Shown here: in pieces, positions 32,045-40,378 of the stretch
How the letters are laid out: each line of letters starts with the position of its first letter
Position numbering within the stretch: the first letter of the stretch is position 1
DNA from: Couchioplanes caeruleus
GTDB taxonomy: Bacteria > Actinomycetota > Actinomycetes > Mycobacteriales > Micromonosporaceae
Direction: 5' to 3'
DNA: 64,000 nt
NCBI RefSeq assembly: GCF_003751945.1
Contig: NZ_RJKL01000001.1
Span: 6,200,001 to 6,264,000 of the forward strand
The notes under the pieces: generated by a model
What the model saw: only the letters and a program-made list of their open reading frames with translations
Databases searched by the model: none
Told to the model about the DNA's origin: nothing
Translations under genes and position numbers: made by a program

Positions 32045-32056
32045 CGACAAGTGTCG
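32045..32056. promoter_or_regulatory. 12-bp palindrome before the HerA-like gene
   Basis: CGACAAGTGTCG (32045-32056) reads the same on both strands except the two central bases, and lies 15 bases before the HerA-like ATG. It could be an operator for the end-resection operon. It does not match the actinobacterial LexA box. Confidence 0.3.
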
Positions 32057-32071
32057 TACCTCTGGTGCAAC

Positions 32072-33868
32072 ATGATCGGCGTGTCTGTCGAAGCGAGCGA
32101 AGCAAGCGAACCGGTCGGGCGGGTCCTGGGCACCGCCGACGCCACCCCGTTGCAGTTCTGGACGGCGGTGACGCCGGGCAGCTACCTGCAGCTCGACGAC
32201 GTGGTCGTGACCCGTCGCGACCTGCCCGACCGCGAGCCGGTGACGATCGCCGGCGTGGTCACCCAGGTCCGGGCCCGGCACGAGGGCGCGCAGTTCGACT
32301 CGGACGTGTTCGCGATCGCCGAGGGCACGCTGCCCGCCCTGGTCCAGGAGGCGGCCGAGGTCACCACCACCCGGGTCGACCCCGAGCTCTACGTGCCGCC
32401 GGCCCCGGGCGCGATCGTGCACCGGGCCTCCGGGGCGGCCCGTGACGCGGCGCTGCACTTCGACCGGATGGAACGCCGGGTCCCGATGGGCACCGGCCGC
32501 GACGGCGTGCCCGTGTTCCTCAATGCCGACTTCCTCGACGGCACCCGGGGCGCGCATGTGTCCATCTCCGGCATTTCCGGCGTGGCGACCAAGACGAGCT
32601 TCGCGACGTTCCTGCTCTACTCGGTGTTCCGGTCCGGCGCGCTCGGCGCCGACGGTGCCAACGCCCGGGCGCTGATCTTCAACGTCAAGGGTGAGGACCT
32701 GCTCTTCCTCGACCACGCCAACACCAAGCTCGACGAGCCGACCACCGCGGCGTACAAGCTGCTCGAGCTGCCCGCGACGGCGTTCCCGGACGTCCGGGTC
32801 TATGCGCCGCCCCGGGCCAACGACTCGTCCGGCGCCCCCGACGTCAGCAGCCGGCTGACCGGGGTCGACAGCTTCTACTGGACGCTCGAGGAGTTCTGCG
32901 CCGACCGGCTCCTGCCGTACGTGTTCGCCGACGCCGACGACGAGCGTCAGCAGTACACGATGGTGGTCCACTCGGTGACCGCCCATCTGGCCCGCCATGC
33001 CGTGCCGGCCGAGGGCGGGATCAGCATCGACGGCCGCCGCCTGGGCGGCTACGGCGACCTGGTCGACCACATCGTCGACCAGCTCACCGACGACGAGACC
33101 CGGTCGATGTGGGCGGGCAGCGCGGTCAACATGGGCACGGTCAACGCGTTCGCCCGGCGGCTGATCGGCAGCAAGCGCGACCTGTCCCGGCTCATCCGCG
33201 GCGACCTCGCGGCCCGCCGCCCGCACCGGATCAAGACCGCGGAGAGCGCCCAGGTCACCGTCGTCGACCTGCACAACCTTCCCGACCGCGCGCAGCGCTT
33301 CGTGGTCGGCGTGACGCTCAAGACGGAGTTCGACGACAAGGAGAAGTCGGGCACCGGACGGCCGCTGCTGTTCGTCGTCCTCGACGAGCTCAACAAGTAC
33401 GCCCCGCGCGAGGGATCGTCGCCGATCAAGGAGGTGCTGCTCGACATCGCCGAGCGGGGCCGCTCGCTCGGCGTCATCCTCATCGGCGCGCAGCAGACCG
33501 CCAGCGAGGTCGAGCGCCGGATCGTGACGAACTCGGCGATCAGGGTCGTCGGCCGCCTTGACCCGGCCGAGGCCTCCCGCCCGGAGTACGGCTTCCTGCC
33601 CCCGGCCATGCGCCAGCGCGCCCTGCTGGCCCGGCCGGGCACGATGTTCGTCAACCAGCCCGACATCCCGGTGCCGCTCTGCGTGGAGTTCCCGTTCCCG
33701 GCCTGGGCCACCCGCAAGTCGGAGTCCGGGCCACCGCCGGTGGGCACCCAGCGCTCGATCGTGCAGAGTGTCGATCCGTTCACCGTCGTCGGCGGCCGTG
33801 GCGGCGCCGCACTCGACCGCGGCGGAAAACCGGTGCCCAGTCCACACGACGACGACATTCCGTTCTAA
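32072..33868 (+). CDS. HerA-like ATPase of the end-resection operon
   Basis: A 598-residue P-loop ATPase of the HerA/FtsK superfamily. The N-terminal beta-barrel (HAS-barrel-like; EPVGRVLGTADATPLQFWT, GSYLQLDDVVVT) precedes an ATPase core with an unusual Walker A, GISGVATKTS (about residues 167-176), Walker B LLFVVLDELNK (about 432-442) and a sensor-like LIGAQQTASEVERRI followed by NSAIRVVGRLDPAEASR. Archaeal HerA forms a hexamer that translocates dsDNA and drives NurA during resection. The next three genes are SbcD, SbcC and a NurA-like nuclease, with 9-bp, -4 and -4 spacings. ATG 32072 or GTG 32081 may be used. Confidence 0.85.
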   Translation: MIGVSVEASEASEPVGRVLGTADATPLQFWTAVTPGSYLQLDDVVVTRRDLPDREPVTIAGVVTQVRARHEGAQFDSDVFAIAEGTLPALVQEAAEVTTTRVDPELYVPPAPGAIVHRASGAARDAALHFDRMERRVPMGTGRDGVPVFLNADFLDGTRGAHVSISGISGVATKTSFATFLLYSVFRSGALGADGANARALIFNVKGEDLLFLDHANTKLDEPTTAAYKLLELPATAFPDVRVYAPPRANDSSGAPDVSSRLTGVDSFYWTLEEFCADRLLPYVFADADDERQQYTMVVHSVTAHLARHAVPAEGGISIDGRRLGGYGDLVDHIVDQLTDDETRSMWAGSAVNMGTVNAFARRLIGSKRDLSRLIRGDLAARRPHRIKTAESAQVTVVDLHNLPDRAQRFVVGVTLKTEFDDKEKSGTGRPLLFVVLDELNKYAPREGSSPIKEVLLDIAERGRSLGVILIGAQQTASEVERRIVTNSAIRVVGRLDPAEASRPEYGFLPPAMRQRALLARPGTMFVNQPDIPVPLCVEFPFPAWATRKSESGPPPVGTQRSIVQSVDPFTVVGGRGGAALDRGGKPVPSPHDDDIPF

Positions 33869-33877
33869 GGTTCGGCG

Positions 33878-35029
33878 ATGCGCATCCTGCACACGTCCGA
33901 CTGGCATGTCGGAAAGGTCCTCAAGGGACGGGCCCGGCTCGACGAGCACATCCGGGTGCTCGCCCAGGTCGTGGAGATCGCCCGGGCGGAGCGGCCGGAC
34001 CTGGTCGTCATCGCCGGCGACCTCTACGACACGGCCGCGCCCTCGCCGGATTCGACCCGGGTGGTGACCCGGGCGCTGTCGGCGCTGCGGCAGACGGGTG
34101 CGCGAGTGGTGGCGATCGGCGGCAACCACGACAACGGGCCCGCGCTGGACGCGCTGCGGCCGTGGGCCGACGCGGCGGGCATCGAGCTGCGCGGCTCCGT
34201 CCGCGACAAACCGGACGACCTGATCATCCGGGGCGAGACGGCGACCGGCGAGCGGTGGCAGCTCGCCGCCCTGCCGTTCCTGTCCCAGCGCTACGCGGTC
34301 CGCGCCGTGGAGATGTACGAGCTGACCGCGGCCGAGGCCACCCAGACGTACGCCGACCACGTCGCCCGCCTGATCGCCCGCCTGGCCGAGGGCTTCGCCG
34401 AGCCCGGCGTGATCAACCTGCTCACCGCCCACCTCACCGTCGTCGGCGCCAGCGCCGGCGGCGGCGAGCGGGAGGCGCACACGGTGATGGGCTACGCGGT
34501 CCCGGCCACGGTCTTCCCGCCGAACGCCCACTACGTCGCCCTGGGTCACCTGCACCGCGCGCAGCGGGTCATCGGCCCCTGCCCGGTGCGTTACAGCGGC
34601 AGCCCGCTCGCCGTCGACTTCGGCGAGGAGGAGAACGTCTGCTCGGTCGCGATCGTCGACGTCTCCACCGACAAGGCCGCACGGGTCCGCGACGTGCCGG
34701 TGACCTCGGCGCGCACCCTGCGGACGGTCCGGGGCAGTCTGGAGCAGCTCGCCACGGTGAACCTTCCGGATGCGTGGCTGCGCGTCTACGTCCGGGAGAC
34801 GCCGCGGGTCGGGCTGCGCGAGGACGTGCAGGAGTTGCTTCCCCAGGCGCTCGAGGTGCGCATCGACCCCGACATGGTGCCCGACAAGGCCGGTGAACGG
34901 ATGGCCCAGCGCGCCGGCCGCTCGCCGCGCGAGCTCTTCGGCGACTACCTGGACAGCCGCGGCAACGCCGAGGAAGGCGTCCGCGAACTCTTCGACGAGC
35001 TGTATGACGAGGTGAGCACGCAGCAATGA
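33878..35029 (+). CDS. sbcD: Exonuclease subunit SbcD / Mre11
   Basis: Mn-dependent calcineurin-like nuclease that processes DNA ends and hairpins with SbcC. In its 383 residues the five phosphoesterase motifs are visible: LHTSDWHVGK, VVIAGDLYDTAAP, IGGNHDNG, the H of NLLTAHLTVVG and YVALGHLHRAQ with YSGSPLAVDFGE. The C-terminal part binds SbcC coiled coils in homologues. ATG 33878 follows nine bases after the HerA-like stop; the stop overlaps the sbcC ATG (ATGA). The organisation argues for a single multi-protein machine. Confidence 0.96.
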   Translation: MRILHTSDWHVGKVLKGRARLDEHIRVLAQVVEIARAERPDLVVIAGDLYDTAAPSPDSTRVVTRALSALRQTGARVVAIGGNHDNGPALDALRPWADAAGIELRGSVRDKPDDLIIRGETATGERWQLAALPFLSQRYAVRAVEMYELTAAEATQTYADHVARLIARLAEGFAEPGVINLLTAHLTVVGASAGGGEREAHTVMGYAVPATVFPPNAHYVALGHLHRAQRVIGPCPVRYSGSPLAVDFGEEENVCSVAIVDVSTDKAARVRDVPVTSARTLRTVRGSLEQLATVNLPDAWLRVYVRETPRVGLREDVQELLPQALEVRIDPDMVPDKAGERMAQRAGRSPRELFGDYLDSRGNAEEGVRELFDELYDEVSTQQ

Positions 35030-37515
35030 GGCCTTTGCGGCTCGACATGGCCGGGTTCACGGTGTTCCGCGACGAGACCACCGTCGACTTCACCGACGCC
35101 GACTACTTCGCCCTGGTCGGCCCGACCGGCTCCGGCAAATCCACCGTGCTCGACGGCATCTGCTTCGCCCTCTACGGCACGGTGCCGAGGTGGGGCGGCA
35201 GCCGCGGCATCGGCAACGCGCTCGCCCCGTCGGCGACCGAGGCCCGGGTGCGGCTGGTGTTCGAGTCCGCCGGCTCGCGGTATGTCGCGACCCGGGTGGT
35301 GCGCCGCGACGGCCGCGGCAACGTCAAGACCGCGGGCGCGGGACTGCAGCTCATGCCGCCGGGCTTCGACGTCACCCGGCTCGACACCGGCATGAGCCTC
35401 GACGACCTCGGTGACGTGCTGGCCGGCACCCCGGCGGAGATGGACCGGGCGATCGTGGAGGCGGTCGGCCTGCCGTACGAGCAGTTCACTAGCTGCGTCG
35501 TGCTGCCGCAGGGCCAGTTCGCCGACTTCCTGCACGCCAAGCCCGCCACCCGGCAGCAGATCCTGGTCAACCTGCTCGGTCTGCACGTCTACGAGGAGGT
35601 GCAGACCCGCGCGTCCACCCGGGCGACCCGGGCGGAGGCCCAGCTCGCCGTGGTCGACCAGGCCCTGGCCGCCCTCGCCGACGCCGACGACGAGGCGGTC
35701 GACGCCGCGGCGGCCCGGCGGGACGCGATGCGCGAACTGACCGGCGAGGTCGAGGCCGCCATGCCGCGGCTGCGGGCCGCGCGAGAGCGCGAGGCCGAGC
35801 TGGCCGCCGCCCGCGACGCCGTCGCGGCGGAGCTCGCCGTGCTGGCACGGGTCGCGGCGCCGGAGGGCAGCGCACGGATCGCCGAGGCCGCGGCCACCGC
35901 CCGGGTCGCGGCCGAGGACGCGGCGACGGCCGTGCGGGCCGCCGAGGAGCGCGAGGAGAAGGTACGCGGAGAGCTGGCGGCGGCGGGCGACGCGGGCTCG
36001 CTGGGGCTGCTCCTGGACCGCCACGTCGAGTGCGACCGGCTGACCGGCCAGGCGGAGTGGTTCGCCGGCGAGGTGTCGGTCGCCGAGGTCGAGCACAGGG
36101 ACGCGGTCGCCGCGGCGGAGCTGGCCCGCTCGGCGCATCTCGGCGCCGAGCAGCTTCTCGAACAGGCCCGGCTGGACTACACCACGGCACAGGCCATGGA
36201 CCGCGCCGCCGCCCTGCGGTCGCATCTCAGCGCCGGGCACGACTGCCCGGTGTGCGCCCAGCCGGTGACGACCGTGCCGCCGATGCCGGAGGGCTCGGCG
36301 GTGGAGGCGGCCGAGCGTCAGGGCAAGGCGGCGCGCGCGGCGGCGGACGTGGCGTCGACGGCCTGGAAGCAGCGCGACGCCGTCGCCCGGGAGCTGGAGC
36401 GCGGCCTGGACCGCAAGCGGGCCCAGTTCGAGCAGCACAAGGCCCGCCTCGCCGAGGTGACGGCGGGACTCGCCGACTCGCCCGGCGTCGAGGCGCTGCG
36501 GGCCCGGCTGGCGGAGCTGACCAAGCTCCAGCGCCGGCTCGACGAGGCCGGCGCGGAGGTGCGCTCCGCCCGGGAGACACACCGCGGGGCCCAGGCGGCG
36601 GTCGCCGCCGCCGAGGAGCGGCAGCGTACGGCGTGGCGTTCGTTCGACCACGTCCGTGATCTCGTGGCCCGGTTCGGGCCGCCTCCGGCCGACCGGGACG
36701 ATCTCGCGGGCGCCTGGACGGCCCTGGTCGAGTGGGCGCGGGAGTCGGCGCGCCGCCGCGAGGTGGCCCGCGACGAGGCGGCCGCCGCCCTCGAGGCCGC
36801 GCAGGACGAGACCCGGCAGACCCGCGCGGCCGTCGCCGGCCTCTTCACCGACCGGGGCCTGCCGGCCCCCGCGGGTGGTACGGACGCCGACCTGATCCGC
36901 GCGGCGGCGGTCGCCGCCGAGCGGGCCGAGGCGGCCTGGCAGCGCCTCGCCGACCGCCGCGAACAGGCCCGCGAGTATGCCGAACAGCGGGCGGGCCTGG
37001 TGCGCGACGGCCGGGTAGCCAAGTCCCTCGCCGGGCACCTGCGGGCCAACAACTTCGAGCGCTGGCTCCTGGAGGAGGCACTCGACCTGCTCGTGGACGG
37101 CGCCTCGCGGATCCTTCGCGAGCTCACCGGCGGCCAGTACGACCTGATGCACGACAAGGGCGAATTCTTCGTCGTCGACCACCACGACGCCGGGCTGCGC
37201 CGGGCGGTGCGGACCCTGTCGGGCGGCGAGACGTTCCAGGCGTCGCTGGCGCTGGCCCTTGCCCTGTCCGAGCAACTGGCCGGGATGTCGACGACGGCGG
37301 CGAGCCTCGAGTCGATCGTGCTGGACGAGGGCTTCGGCACGCTCGACGCGGCGACGCTCGACGTGGTGGCGGCGACCCTGGAGAACCTGGCCGCCCGCGG
37401 CGACCGGATGGTCGGCGTCGTCACGCATGTGCACGCCCTGGCCGAGCGGGTGCCGGTCCGGTTCGAGGTGCACAAGGACGCGCGCACCGCGCACGTGGAG
37501 AGGGTCGGCTTGTGA
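35026..37515 (+). CDS. sbcC: Exonuclease ATPase subunit SbcC / Rad50
   Basis: SMC-like ATPase partner of SbcD, 829 residues, shorter than the about 1,000 of many SbcC. Order: Walker A GPTGSGKST (32-40), Q-loop in VVLPQGQFADFLHA, long Ala/Glu/Arg-rich coiled coil, zinc hook CPVC (407-410), second coiled coil, ABC signature LSGGETFQASLAL (from about 731), Walker B SIVLDEGFGTLD (about 763-774). It tethers DNA ends and gates SbcD by ATP hydrolysis. Coding strand Ala/Arg bias in the arms is normal for high-GC coiled coils. The stop overlaps the NurA-like GTG. Confidence 0.95.
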   Translation: MRPLRLDMAGFTVFRDETTVDFTDADYFALVGPTGSGKSTVLDGICFALYGTVPRWGGSRGIGNALAPSATEARVRLVFESAGSRYVATRVVRRDGRGNVKTAGAGLQLMPPGFDVTRLDTGMSLDDLGDVLAGTPAEMDRAIVEAVGLPYEQFTSCVVLPQGQFADFLHAKPATRQQILVNLLGLHVYEEVQTRASTRATRAEAQLAVVDQALAALADADDEAVDAAAARRDAMRELTGEVEAAMPRLRAAREREAELAAARDAVAAELAVLARVAAPEGSARIAEAAATARVAAEDAATAVRAAEEREEKVRGELAAAGDAGSLGLLLDRHVECDRLTGQAEWFAGEVSVAEVEHRDAVAAAELARSAHLGAEQLLEQARLDYTTAQAMDRAAALRSHLSAGHDCPVCAQPVTTVPPMPEGSAVEAAERQGKAARAAADVASTAWKQRDAVARELERGLDRKRAQFEQHKARLAEVTAGLADSPGVEALRARLAELTKLQRRLDEAGAEVRSARETHRGAQAAVAAAEERQRTAWRSFDHVRDLVARFGPPPADRDDLAGAWTALVEWARESARRREVARDEAAAALEAAQDETRQTRAAVAGLFTDRGLPAPAGGTDADLIRAAAVAAERAEAAWQRLADRREQAREYAEQRAGLVRDGRVAKSLAGHLRANNFERWLLEEALDLLVDGASRILRELTGGQYDLMHDKGEFFVVDHHDAGLRRAVRTLSGGETFQASLALALALSEQLAGMSTTAASLESIVLDEGFGTLDAATLDVVAATLENLAARGDRMVGVVTHVHALAERVPVRFEVHKDARTAHVERVGL

Positions 37516-38480
37516 GGATGTTCGTCGACGCCTGGGATCCTGCGTACGGGGCGTCGTTCGAGGGCGGGGGCGCCGCCGACGGGCCGGCCTCGCCGAGCAG
37601 CGCGCAGGTCGACACGGACGTCGAGGTGCCCGCCGCGCAGTGGGCCCCGATCGACGTGCCGGCGGGTGTGCGCTGCCCCGACGTGGTGTTCCTCGTCGAC
37701 GGCGTGCGCCGTAACGACGCCGGGCTCTGGACGGCCGAGGAGGACGGGCTGTCCTATGCCGGCCTCGCCGCCTCGTACGCGGCCGGCGTCGTCCGCTGCG
37801 ACCTGCGCCGGGGAGTGGCCGAGTTGGCGGGGGCACGGGTGGCCCGGGGTCTGTTCACCGCGAGCCCGTCGGCGGAAGACGTGCAGGCCGGCTCGGTGCG
37901 CTACGAGGTGCACCGGGTCAGCGGCACCGGCGAGGCGAGCAAGCTGCCGGCGGCCGTTCAGGCGCCGCTGACCGCCCTGGAGATCGACATTTCGGGGGAG
38001 GCCCGCAGTCACGGCTCGGACGGCGCCGACCTGCTCGTGGTCGACGGTCCGCTGCGCAACCGCCGCCAGTTGCCGCGCACCATCGGGTACGTGAAGACCC
38101 AGCAGAAGCAGTATCTGCCGGCCCAGCTCACCCCGGTCGTGACCGGGCTGCGCCCCGGCCAGCGGACGCCGGTCTTCGCGCTCGGCACGGTCTGGGGCGG
38201 CTGGTCGTGGTATCTGCGCCTGCCCGGCGCCTCGGGGGCGCCGTGGTCGGGCATCGTCCGGGTGGAGTGCTCGCCGGATCTGACGCCCGCGCAGGCCGTC
38301 GAGCTCGCCGGGCTGTCCGGGGCGACGCTGCCGCGGTTCGCGTCGTCGGCGTACAAGGATCCGAGGGCCCCGCAGAATCTGGTCCCGATCGCGGGCCTGG
38401 AACGCCGATTGCGCGGGCTGCTGGGTGACGCCCGGGTGCTGCACCGCGCCCTGACCCTGGCCGCGGCCCGCACCCGATGA
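37512..38480 (+). CDS. nurA: NurA-like DNA end-processing nuclease
   Basis: A 322-residue protein with the layout of the NurA (RNase-H-like) nuclease: a first acidic site in VVFLVDGVRRND (Asp63), a second in LLVVDGPLRNRR (Asp178), the GYVKTQQKQYL lysine block (Lys195) and a C-terminal YKDPRAPQNLVPIAGLERRL segment resembling the NurA end motif. NurA is the nuclease driven by HerA in archaea. GTG 37512 overlaps the sbcC stop; ATG 37518 is an alternative. The position as fourth gene after HerA, SbcD and SbcC strongly supports the call, which otherwise rests on motif spacing. Confidence 0.78.
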   Translation: MRMFVDAWDPAYGASFEGGGAADGPASPSSAQVDTDVEVPAAQWAPIDVPAGVRCPDVVFLVDGVRRNDAGLWTAEEDGLSYAGLAASYAAGVVRCDLRRGVAELAGARVARGLFTASPSAEDVQAGSVRYEVHRVSGTGEASKLPAAVQAPLTALEIDISGEARSHGSDGADLLVVDGPLRNRRQLPRTIGYVKTQQKQYLPAQLTPVVTGLRPGQRTPVFALGTVWGGWSWYLRLPGASGAPWSGIVRVECSPDLTPAQAVELAGLSGATLPRFASSAYKDPRAPQNLVPIAGLERRLRGLLGDARVLHRALTLAAARTR

Positions 38481-38918
38481 CCGGTTCATGCCTTTCGGCG
38501 ATCCTTGCCGGACCCGCTCACCGTTGCGGTCACGCTACCGAGCGTAGAGCAAAATCGGCTCCTCAGTCACGCTGAGTAAGTTGCGTTTCACGGCGCGCCG
38601 ACGGCGCATCAGCCGAGCGTCTCGAGTACGCACTGTGCGTCTGTCGACGGAACCGGCCTGCTGAGTATTATTCGCGTGCCACTGGGCGTATATCGGCGCC
38701 TATGGATGGATGTTGCGACCCACGCGCGCCCTGGCCTCCCGCTTTCCGCGGGCGGTCGAGCGTGCCCAATGCGCTTGGAACCGGAGGAACCTCTTGCGAC
38801 TGCACGTCGATGCATCGCCTCCCCGCCCTCGCCGGGAAATTTTCCCCATCGCTTTGATCCCGGCGGGCCACCCCGCGCGTATGACAGGCGACGGGGTAAG
38901 CACCGGCAGGAGGAATCG
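38481..38918. other. 438-bp non-coding leader of the sigma-factor operon
   Basis: No gene that I can support. The first half is AT-richer, with a CTCAG/CTGAG inverted repeat near 38562-38576. Two ECF-type GGAAC elements occur at 38649 and 38786; the latter is followed by CGTC at 38805 (14-base spacer, shorter than the usual 15-17), a weak candidate for autoregulation. A good ribosome binding site, CAGGAGG, is at 38907-38913. Confidence 0.45.
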
Positions 38919-39596
38919 ATGCATGCGACGGTCATGGAGCGGCTCGCGCCGGACGGGGTGCGCGTCATGACGCAGCAGCGATCCGGAGGCCGGTGGCAGG
39001 CGCTCGACGGAGGCCGTAGTGCGGAGAATGATGACGCCGTGACGCCGCGGCAGGCCCGCCACGAGGCCGGGTCGGCGACCGCGAATCACGAGGACACGCT
39101 GGTCCGGATGCTGTACGAGGAGCACGCCGGCCCGCTGCTGATGTTCGTGCTGCGGCTCACCGGCGGAGACCGGCAGCGCGCCGAGGACATCGTCCAGGAG
39201 ACGCTGCTGCGGGCGTGGCGCAACGCGCACCGCCTCGGCGCCCAGGGCCAGCAGTCGCTGCGGCCCTGGCTGGTCACGGTGGCCCGGCGGATCGCGATCG
39301 ACGACCATCGCAGCGCCAGCGCCCGCCCGCCGGAAACGTACGACCGCGAACTGGAGAGCTTCCCCAGCACGGCCGACGATACGGATCGGGTCCTCCAGTT
39401 GATGACCGTGACCGATGCCTTGCGTACTCTGAGCCAGTCGCATCGGGAGATCCTTGTCGAGACCTACTTCCGCGGCCGGACCGTTCCGGAGGCCGCGGAC
39501 GTGCTCGGCCTGCCTCTGGGTACGGCCAAATCGCGTGTGTACTACGCCTTGCGGGCCCTGCGTACGGCTCTGCAGCAGCGGGGGGTGACTGAGTAA
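38919..39596 (+). CDS. ECF sigma factor (SigL-like)
   Basis: A 225-residue extracytoplasmic-function sigma factor. Region 2 is YEEHAGPLLMFVLRLTGGD with AEDIVQETLLRAWRN; region 4 is LSQSHREILVETYFRGRTV and GLPLGTAKSRVYYALRALR. Sequence layout is closest in my reading to mycobacterial SigL, which is also followed by a zinc anti-sigma. An N-terminal extension of about 55 residues precedes region 2. ATG 38919 has a strong CAGGAGG five bases upstream. The stop TAA shares its A with the ATG of the anti-sigma gene (TAATG), so they are coupled. Confidence 0.92.
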   Translation: MHATVMERLAPDGVRVMTQQRSGGRWQALDGGRSAENDDAVTPRQARHEAGSATANHEDTLVRMLYEEHAGPLLMFVLRLTGGDRQRAEDIVQETLLRAWRNAHRLGAQGQQSLRPWLVTVARRIAIDDHRSASARPPETYDRELESFPSTADDTDRVLQLMTVTDALRTLSQSHREILVETYFRGRTVPEAADVLGLPLGTAKSRVYYALRALRTALQQRGVTE

Positions 39597-40378
39597 TGAC
39601 GCAGGAACAGCACTTCGACGTCGCCGCGTACGCCCTCGGCGTACTCGACGAGCGCGATGCCGCCCGTTTCGAGGACCATCTGATCGACTGCCCGGCCTGC
39701 GCGATCGAGCTCGAGTCGTTGCTGCCGGTGGTCGACATCCTCTCGGACGTCGACGCGGACGCGCTGGTCGCGACCGAGCAGTCGCGCCGCGACGGCCTGA
39801 TGCTGAAGTCGATGATCGGCGAGGTGAAGCGGGAGCGGCGCCGGGCCAACAGCCGGCGGCTCTACTCGCTGGCGGCCGCGGTCGTGGTCTTCGCGATGCT
39901 GTCCATCGGCGCGCTCTTCGCCGGCGGCCAGTGGCTCGCCCCGGAGCAGGCGCCCCAGCCGGAGGCGCAGAAGTCCCAGCCGCGCTCGAGCAAGGTGCTC
40001 GACCCGCTGCCGGTGGCCAAGGACATCAGCATCGGCGGCACGCCGCTCGCCGGCGAGACCTTCACCGCCACGGACGCCCGCAGTGGTGTCAAGGCGTTGG
40101 TGGGTCTCGAGCCGAAGGACTGGGGTACCCAGGTCTCCTACGCCGTCGGCAACATCAAGGGTCCGCTGCTGTGCCGGGCCGTCGCGGTCCGCACCAACGG
40201 CGGGATCGAGGAGCTGTCGACCTGGAACGTGGGAGATAAGGGCTGGGGCACACCCGCCCAGCCGGAGCCGCTGCTGCTGCAGTCCGTGACGGCGCTCCCG
40301 CGCGCCGACATCGCGCACATCCAGGTGCAGGCCTCCGACGGCAAGGGCGGGTGGGAGACGCTGGTTCGCGTTCCCTGA
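39596..40378 (+). CDS. Zinc-binding membrane anti-sigma factor
   Basis: A 260-residue anti-sigma factor of the ZAS class. The cytoplasmic N-terminus has the HxxxCxxC-type site: His6, then HLIDCPACAIELE near residues 27-40. One TM (SLAAAVVVFAMLSIGALFA) follows near residues 90-110, then an extracytoplasmic domain (EPKDWGTQVSYAVGNIKGPL, CRAVAVRTNGG, WNVGDKGWGTPAQPEPLLL), the DUF4384/SCO-RskA-like sensor region. It should hold the ECF sigma inactive until an envelope or redox signal acts. Translational coupling to the sigma gene fixes the pair. A strong terminator follows. Confidence 0.92.
   Translation: MTQEQHFDVAAYALGVLDERDAARFEDHLIDCPACAIELESLLPVVDILSDVDADALVATEQSRRDGLMLKSMIGEVKRERRRANSRRLYSLAAAVVVFAMLSIGALFAGGQWLAPEQAPQPEAQKSQPRSSKVLDPLPVAKDISIGGTPLAGETFTATDARSGVKALVGLEPKDWGTQVSYAVGNIKGPLLCRAVAVRTNGGIEELSTWNVGDKGWGTPAQPEPLLLQSVTALPRADIAHIQVQASDGKGGWETLVRVP

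Follow-up and report, generated by a model that had tools for sequence, protein, structure and literature searches.

The 64,000-nucleotide stretch of the Couchioplanes caeruleus genome analysed here (contig NZ_RJKL01000001.1, positions 6,200,001 to 6,264,000; "the window" below) carries four consecutive reading frames on its + strand, herA-sbcD-sbcC-nurA, encoding HerA, SbcD (Mre11), SbcC (Rad50) and NurA. Its host belongs to the Micromonosporaceae and stands close to Actinoplanes. The four genes form a tight and conserved operon, and their sequences support its interpretation, most simply, as an end-resection unit. We consider, with a probability of about three in four, that this is a housekeeping, DNA damage-inducible operon for DNA-end resection. 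This reading draws on the identities of the genes, their conserved order, the co-occurrence of HerA and NurA, a promoter element shared with recA, and the presence of pafBC-like genes in the same genome.

The original prediction, made from the sequence without database searches, proposed four genes with intergenic gaps of 9, -4 and -4 bases, and the reading frames confirmed both the genes and their spacing (Table 1). By gene arrangement, herA, nurA, sbcD and sbcC stand together as a four-gene resection operon. SbcD scored above the curated cut-off of TIGR00619. SbcC matched TIGR00618, but with 259.5 bits, below the curated cut-off of 478.5 bits; its sequence includes the P-loop GPTGSGKS, the zinc hook CPVC, LSGGE and LDEGFGTLD. 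Profiles and motifs thus identify an SbcCD pair, with an SbcD phosphoesterase and an SbcC ABC-ATPase bearing a zinc hook, as had been predicted, and this sbcC was the sole SbcC match detected in the genome.

Table 1. Features of the operon and its promoter region (positions in the window).
Feature	Position	Strand	Evidence
Promoter element, RecA-NDp/PafBC-like, TGTCGTAC-N8-CAACAT	32052..32073	+	conserved in genus and family
herA, bacterial HerA-type translocase	32081..33868	+	phmmer vs 7f6d_B, E 6.9e-148; GTG at +29 of element
HerA P-loop GISGVATKTS	32570..32599	+	motif
HerA Walker B VVLDELNK	33374..33397	+	motif, alignment with D. radiodurans HerA
sbcD, Mre11-type nuclease	33878..35029	+	TIGR00619, E 1.5e-49; PF00149, E 1.3e-13
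sbcC, Rad50-type ATPase	35026..37515	+	TIGR00618, E 6e-77; overlaps sbcD by 4 bases
SbcC zinc hook CPVC	36244..36255	+	motif
nurA, bacterial NurA-type nuclease, GTG start	37512..38480	+	phmmer vs 7f6d_H, E 1.6e-19; D. radiodurans NurA fold; overlaps sbcC by 4 bases

HerA and NurA belong to the bacterial type for which structures are available from Deinococcus radiodurans (drHerA and drNurA; PDB 7F6D, 7WRW and 7WRX). The profile check proposed with the original prediction failed, because a Pfam scan at E≤1 matched neither protein to DUF87, HAS-barrel or NurA (PF09376), these entries being detection models. With phmmer, homology was found along drHerA in two stretches (residues 1-308 and 346-551, ATG reading), and NurA matched drNurA (Table 1). 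The P-loop GISGVATKTS had been described as an unusual Walker A, but it is identical in drHerA, and G[IV]SG[VI]ATKT[ST] was carried by 181 of the 181 HerA loci examined; one of the source lists also contained eight loci lacking HerA, and several genomes appear twice. In drHerA, K175 contacts the beta-phosphate of ADP and T176 contacts Mg (PMC9960219); they align with K174 and T175 of the protein studied here, and D438/E439 and R446 align with drHerA D487/E488 and R495, the roles of which are given in the same source. The suggestion of a mechanistically different motor is not supported, as the P-loop is the family norm and its K and T residues bind the ADP phosphate and Mg in drHerA. For NurA, the predicted RNase H-like fold was recovered and matches that of drNurA (14.3); TM1739 scored 13.6, and TdpAB (PDB 8WET) gave a weaker match than either. 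All the NurA-type residues originally listed (D63, D178, K195 and YKDP) are present. D63, K195 and R285 align with drNurA positions 53, 201 and 309, which were mutated in that protein (the letters at these positions being derived from a 20-residue numbering offset), and are invariant across 33 homologues. HerA is predicted to be a hexameric dsDNA pump and NurA a dimeric 5' nuclease.

The order herA-sbcD-sbcC-nurA was found in all 21 loci of a first family set, with genes overlapping or nearly adjacent (most junctions ≤30 bases, the widest 265), and in 69 of the 80 loci of a second set, the remaining 11 stopping at a contig end before nurA. This second set consisted of the best 80 of 208 stretches encoding a relative, all from Micromonosporaceae (e.g. 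Nucisporomicrobium, Pseudosporangium, Actinoplanes and Micromonospora), and at least four genomes were common to both sets. With 69 of 80 loci in the same order and the others cut by contig ends, the arrangement lies far beyond chance, and the conservation in relatives on which the original prediction depended is borne out.

Gene order outside the family was assessed in 20 stretches from a phylum sample, one of them from a family member. Thirteen displayed herA-sbcD-sbcC-nurA, some with intervening DNA, two had nurA-herA-sbcD-sbcC, two had herA-sbcD-sbcC as far as the contig end, and in three HerA stood by itself, NurA being encoded at a distance of 14 or 18 kb or on a separate contig. Some HerA-like match (E≤0.001) was obtained in 105 of the 296 genomes of the phylum sample; other families of the host's class yielded four weak HerA matches among the matches listed (best E 1.3e-6). 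The NurA search covered 198 phylum genomes (taken to be G000-G197). Of these, 46 had HerA at E<1e-50; NurA at E<1e-10 was found in 45, each of which was also one of the 46. In the sole genome with HerA but not NurA (G070), herA lies near a contig end, and two additional NurA matches (E about 1e-6) adjoin weak HerA matches.

A near-invariant block upstream of herA is common to the window and 29 genus relatives. The element identified there, TGTCGTAC-N8-CAACAT, is the best-scoring site in the window (23.4, the next site scoring 13.8). The RecA-independent damage promoter acting via PafBC has the consensus tTGTCRgtg-8-TannnT (PMC5656591), of which the herA element retains TGTCG, the spacing and part of the -10, with changes in gtg and in the first T of TannnT. 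The recA upstream region of all 30 genus genomes considered contains TGTCRKAC-N8-TANNNT. Within the family, 100 upstream stretches were scanned (20 from the first set and 80 from the second); the strict element was present in 86 of them and absent from all 100 opposite strands.

The element also bears on the start of herA. The reading frame extends over 32072-33868 if begun at the ATG originally proposed, but this ATG overlaps the -10 part of the element, and the in-frame GTG at 32081 is therefore the more likely start. An ATG or GTG at +28 or +29 of the element was present in 78 of the 80 family loci (of the other two, one had no element and the other no start codon), which suggests a leaderless transcript. 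As in the window, herA itself begins with this codon in 43 of the 80 loci; in 35 the codon begins a short ORF, of 14 codons in 28 cases, and 34 of these 35 loci are on the Micromonospora side (L159-L195). The short ORF (e.g. MRADRDARPTRVAR), which starts at +29, shares a four-base ATGA overlap with the herA ATG in 32 of 35 loci. In Micromonospora, the transcript thus seems to open with an ORF of about 14 codons overlapping the herA start, possibly a leaderless leader ORF coupled to herA.

As a separate observation, 38 of 43 Actinoplanes-side loci (L116-L158) have DnaA-box-like sequences (TTGTCCACA, ≤1 mismatch) in the 300 bases preceding herA, 23 of them two or more. Such sequences were found in none of 36 Micromonospora-side loci or 79 random control stretches, and not in the window; they also precede recA in 28 of 30 genus genomes.

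We then considered the pattern TGTCRKAC-N8-YANNNT across the host genome, in which it has 54 sites, versus eight for the reversed pattern. The pattern was derived from the recA and herA sites, which consequently match it by construction, as does the closeness of the herA score (23.4) to the median of the other sites (23.7). Among the 53 other sites examined, 44 had a candidate downstream ORF, and 30 of these were scanned with NCBIfam; in nine of the 14 left unscanned, the site lies within a coding frame by a codon test. By NCBIfam name, 13 of the 30 downstream proteins act in repair, replication or the SOS response (RecA, LexA, UvrA, PolA, DinB, RecO, PcrA, RadA, PriA, Ogt, an Lhr-type helicase, a DEDD exonuclease and an exonuclease/polymerase), corresponding to p of about 7e-15 with an assumed background of 2%. 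Pfam further contributes an AlkZ-like glycosylase. The CANNAT-type -10 of herA is not alone, since CANNAT sites also precede recO, priA, ogt and the genes for the Lhr-type helicase and the exonuclease/polymerase. PafB- and PafC-like proteins (WYL/WCX and HTH_PafC) are encoded about 2 kb from pafA.

We infer that the enzymes are active, that SbcCD cooperates with HerA-NurA, that damage induces the operon and that PafBC regulates it, along the following lines. DNA damage would activate PafBC, which would raise expression of herA-sbcD-sbcC-nurA together with recA through a promoter of the recA/RecA-NDp type, the operon being read from a leaderless mRNA. SbcCD would clear hairpin or protein-blocked ends, allowing HerA-NurA to load; the HerA hexamer would pump duplex into the NurA dimer, which would remove the 5' strand to leave a 3' single strand onto which RecA would load. 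Somewhat less firmly, we favour the extension of this scheme to the Micromonosporaceae as a whole, with a PafBC-controlled, damage-inducible SbcCD-HerA-NurA machine working beside AdnAB-like enzymes, its leaderless mRNA beginning, in Micromonospora, with the conserved ORF of about 14 codons coupled to herA.

Several observations weigh against a damage-inducible resection operon. In the NurA-binding acidic patch of drHerA (D78/E80/D81), D78 is kept, but F80 and A81 differ, so that the interface acids are only partly conserved; these residues align poorly outside Deinococcus (PMC9960219). Upstream of herA, the -10 part is CAACAT rather than the published TANNNT and the upstream half TGTCGTAC rather than TGTCRGTG, and the strict element is missing from 14 of the 100 family stretches, 13 of them from genera other than the host's and the fourteenth (L165) a second record of one of these. 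Seventeen of the 30 scanned downstream proteins have no repair name in NCBIfam, the non-repair genes including alr, aroA, ABC transporters and unnamed proteins. The genome also encodes an AdnAB-like pair (L256; 1198 and 1194 aa, each with UvrD and PDDEXK) and a second helicase/nuclease pair (L257; C1:4306267-4312703; 1130 aa with UvrD and PDDEXK, 1038 aa with PDDEXK). It therefore holds three end-resection-type systems, and HerA-NurA is additional here rather than the only route. Finally, nurA or herA deletions in Deinococcus or Thermus have modest effects or even improve damage resistance (PMC9960219), such that a restraining role is possible.

These conflicting phenotypes are also consistent with the two pairs being co-transcribed but working separately, SbcCD acting on hairpins and crosslinks and HerA-NurA, possibly as a restraint on recombination, on ends or forks, with regulation alone in common. 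We regard this as possible, at below even odds: herA is apart from the other genes in three of the 20 phylum stretches, and nurA-herA is unlinked from sbcDC in D. radiodurans (PMC8708640), but the genes overlap or nearly adjoin in all 21 loci of the first family set, and archaeal Mre11 interacts with HerA (PMC2288612). An ordinary promoter upstream from a constitutive operon not driven by PafBC is rather unlikely. Such a promoter would account for the departure of both halves from the published consensus and for the sites preceding alr, aroA and an ABC transporter gene; however, it fits poorly with the excess of sites over the reversed control, the frequency of repair, replication or SOS genes downstream and the presence of the same element at recA in all 30 genus genomes.

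HerA was present in 199 of 200 sampled Micromonosporaceae genomes, representing 44 of 44 genera, a distribution that is neither sporadic nor island-type. In each of the HerA, SbcD and NurA trees, the 11 sampled family rows fall into one starred clade; the Streptomyces and Nonomuraea rows attach next, with a star in the HerA and SbcD trees and 93/83 in the NurA tree. The trees thus keep the family rows together, consistent with the genes having descended as a unit in this family, and the operon is core equipment of the Micromonosporaceae rather than a sporadic defence island. All four genes are also found on a Streptomyces linear plasmid, in an 11.85-Mb Nonomuraea gerenzanensis record and on a cyanobacterial conjugative plasmid. 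An anti-phage or anti-plasmid module degrading invading DNA ends, like other HerA-nuclease pairs, is very unlikely: PADLOC models match the operon weakly (probably non-specifically, as ordinary SbcC/Rad50 proteins would match such models too) and plasmid-borne copies exist, but the near-universal presence in the family, the single clade in three gene trees, a viral-contig scan in which no close relative was found and a promoter of the DNA-repair type all disfavour it. Overall, the gene identities and the tight, conserved operon of the original prediction stand, its aberrant Walker A does not, and the defence alternative that it raised loses ground.

Two neighbourhoods were recorded in passing. 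The four-gene copy on the linear plasmid of Streptomyces sp. BB1-1-1 (L081) adjoins an ImmA/IrrE-family gene and DUF2397, TIGR02678 and TIGR02680 genes, the last three of which we take to be Wadjet-like. In the window, an ECF sigma factor gene and a zf-HC2 anti-sigma factor gene lie directly 3' of the operon (38676-40378); the listed GTG start of the sigma factor may be too early, because its NF007227 match starts at residue 134.

The four-gene operon of archaea is classical. In thermophilic archaea, herA-nurA-mre11-rad50 unites the same four functions and is described as UV-induced (PMC5448004), but the proteins here are of the bacterial type, with <20% identity between bacterial and archaeal forms (PMC9960219), and the archaeal promoter is replaced by one that appears to be of the PafBC type. 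The D. radiodurans proteins belong to the same families, with the P-loop, Walker B, Arg495 and NurA catalytic positions aligning, but their genes do not cluster with Mre11/Rad50 homologues (PMC8708640), whereas all four are contiguous here, and Deinococcus is without RecBCD/AddAB (PMC9960219), unlike the host genome with its AdnAB-like genes. The hepA-sbcD-sbcC genes of Oceanithermus profundus (PMC5448004) likewise place a bacterial herA homologue before sbcD and sbcC, but this species belongs to the Thermales and its HepA is archaeal-like, whereas the Micromonosporaceae operon ends with nurA. The mycobacterial PafBC/RecA-NDp regulon, which includes recA and uvrA, shares TGTCR, the 8-base spacer and the -10 geometry, but has TTGTCRGTG where TTGTCRKAC is found here, with CANNAT at herA; the HerA operon is not named among its genes in the accessible parts of PMC5656591 and PMC8223512.

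HerA-NurA in Actinobacteria receives a one-sentence mention in the available text of PMC8708640, and a literature search, with most subscription papers outside its reach, did not find the actinobacterial operon, its almost universal occurrence in Micromonosporaceae or its repair-type promoter described. What appears to be new is the conserved element before herA, which resembles the genus recA promoters and the RecA-NDp/PafBC motif. The list of such elements in the host genome constitutes a candidate damage regulon for the Actinoplanes group. HerA-NurA biochemistry is known from archaea and Deinococcus, and the bacterial role is disputed, with conflicting deletion phenotypes (PMC9960219). In this culturable family, where the four genes are core, adjoin one another and follow a recA-type promoter, whether SbcCD (Mre11-Rad50) hands DNA ends to HerA-NurA becomes directly testable in a bacterium. 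If our interpretation is correct, the Micromonosporaceae operon would parallel the UV-induced four-gene operon of archaea while answering to an independent regulator.
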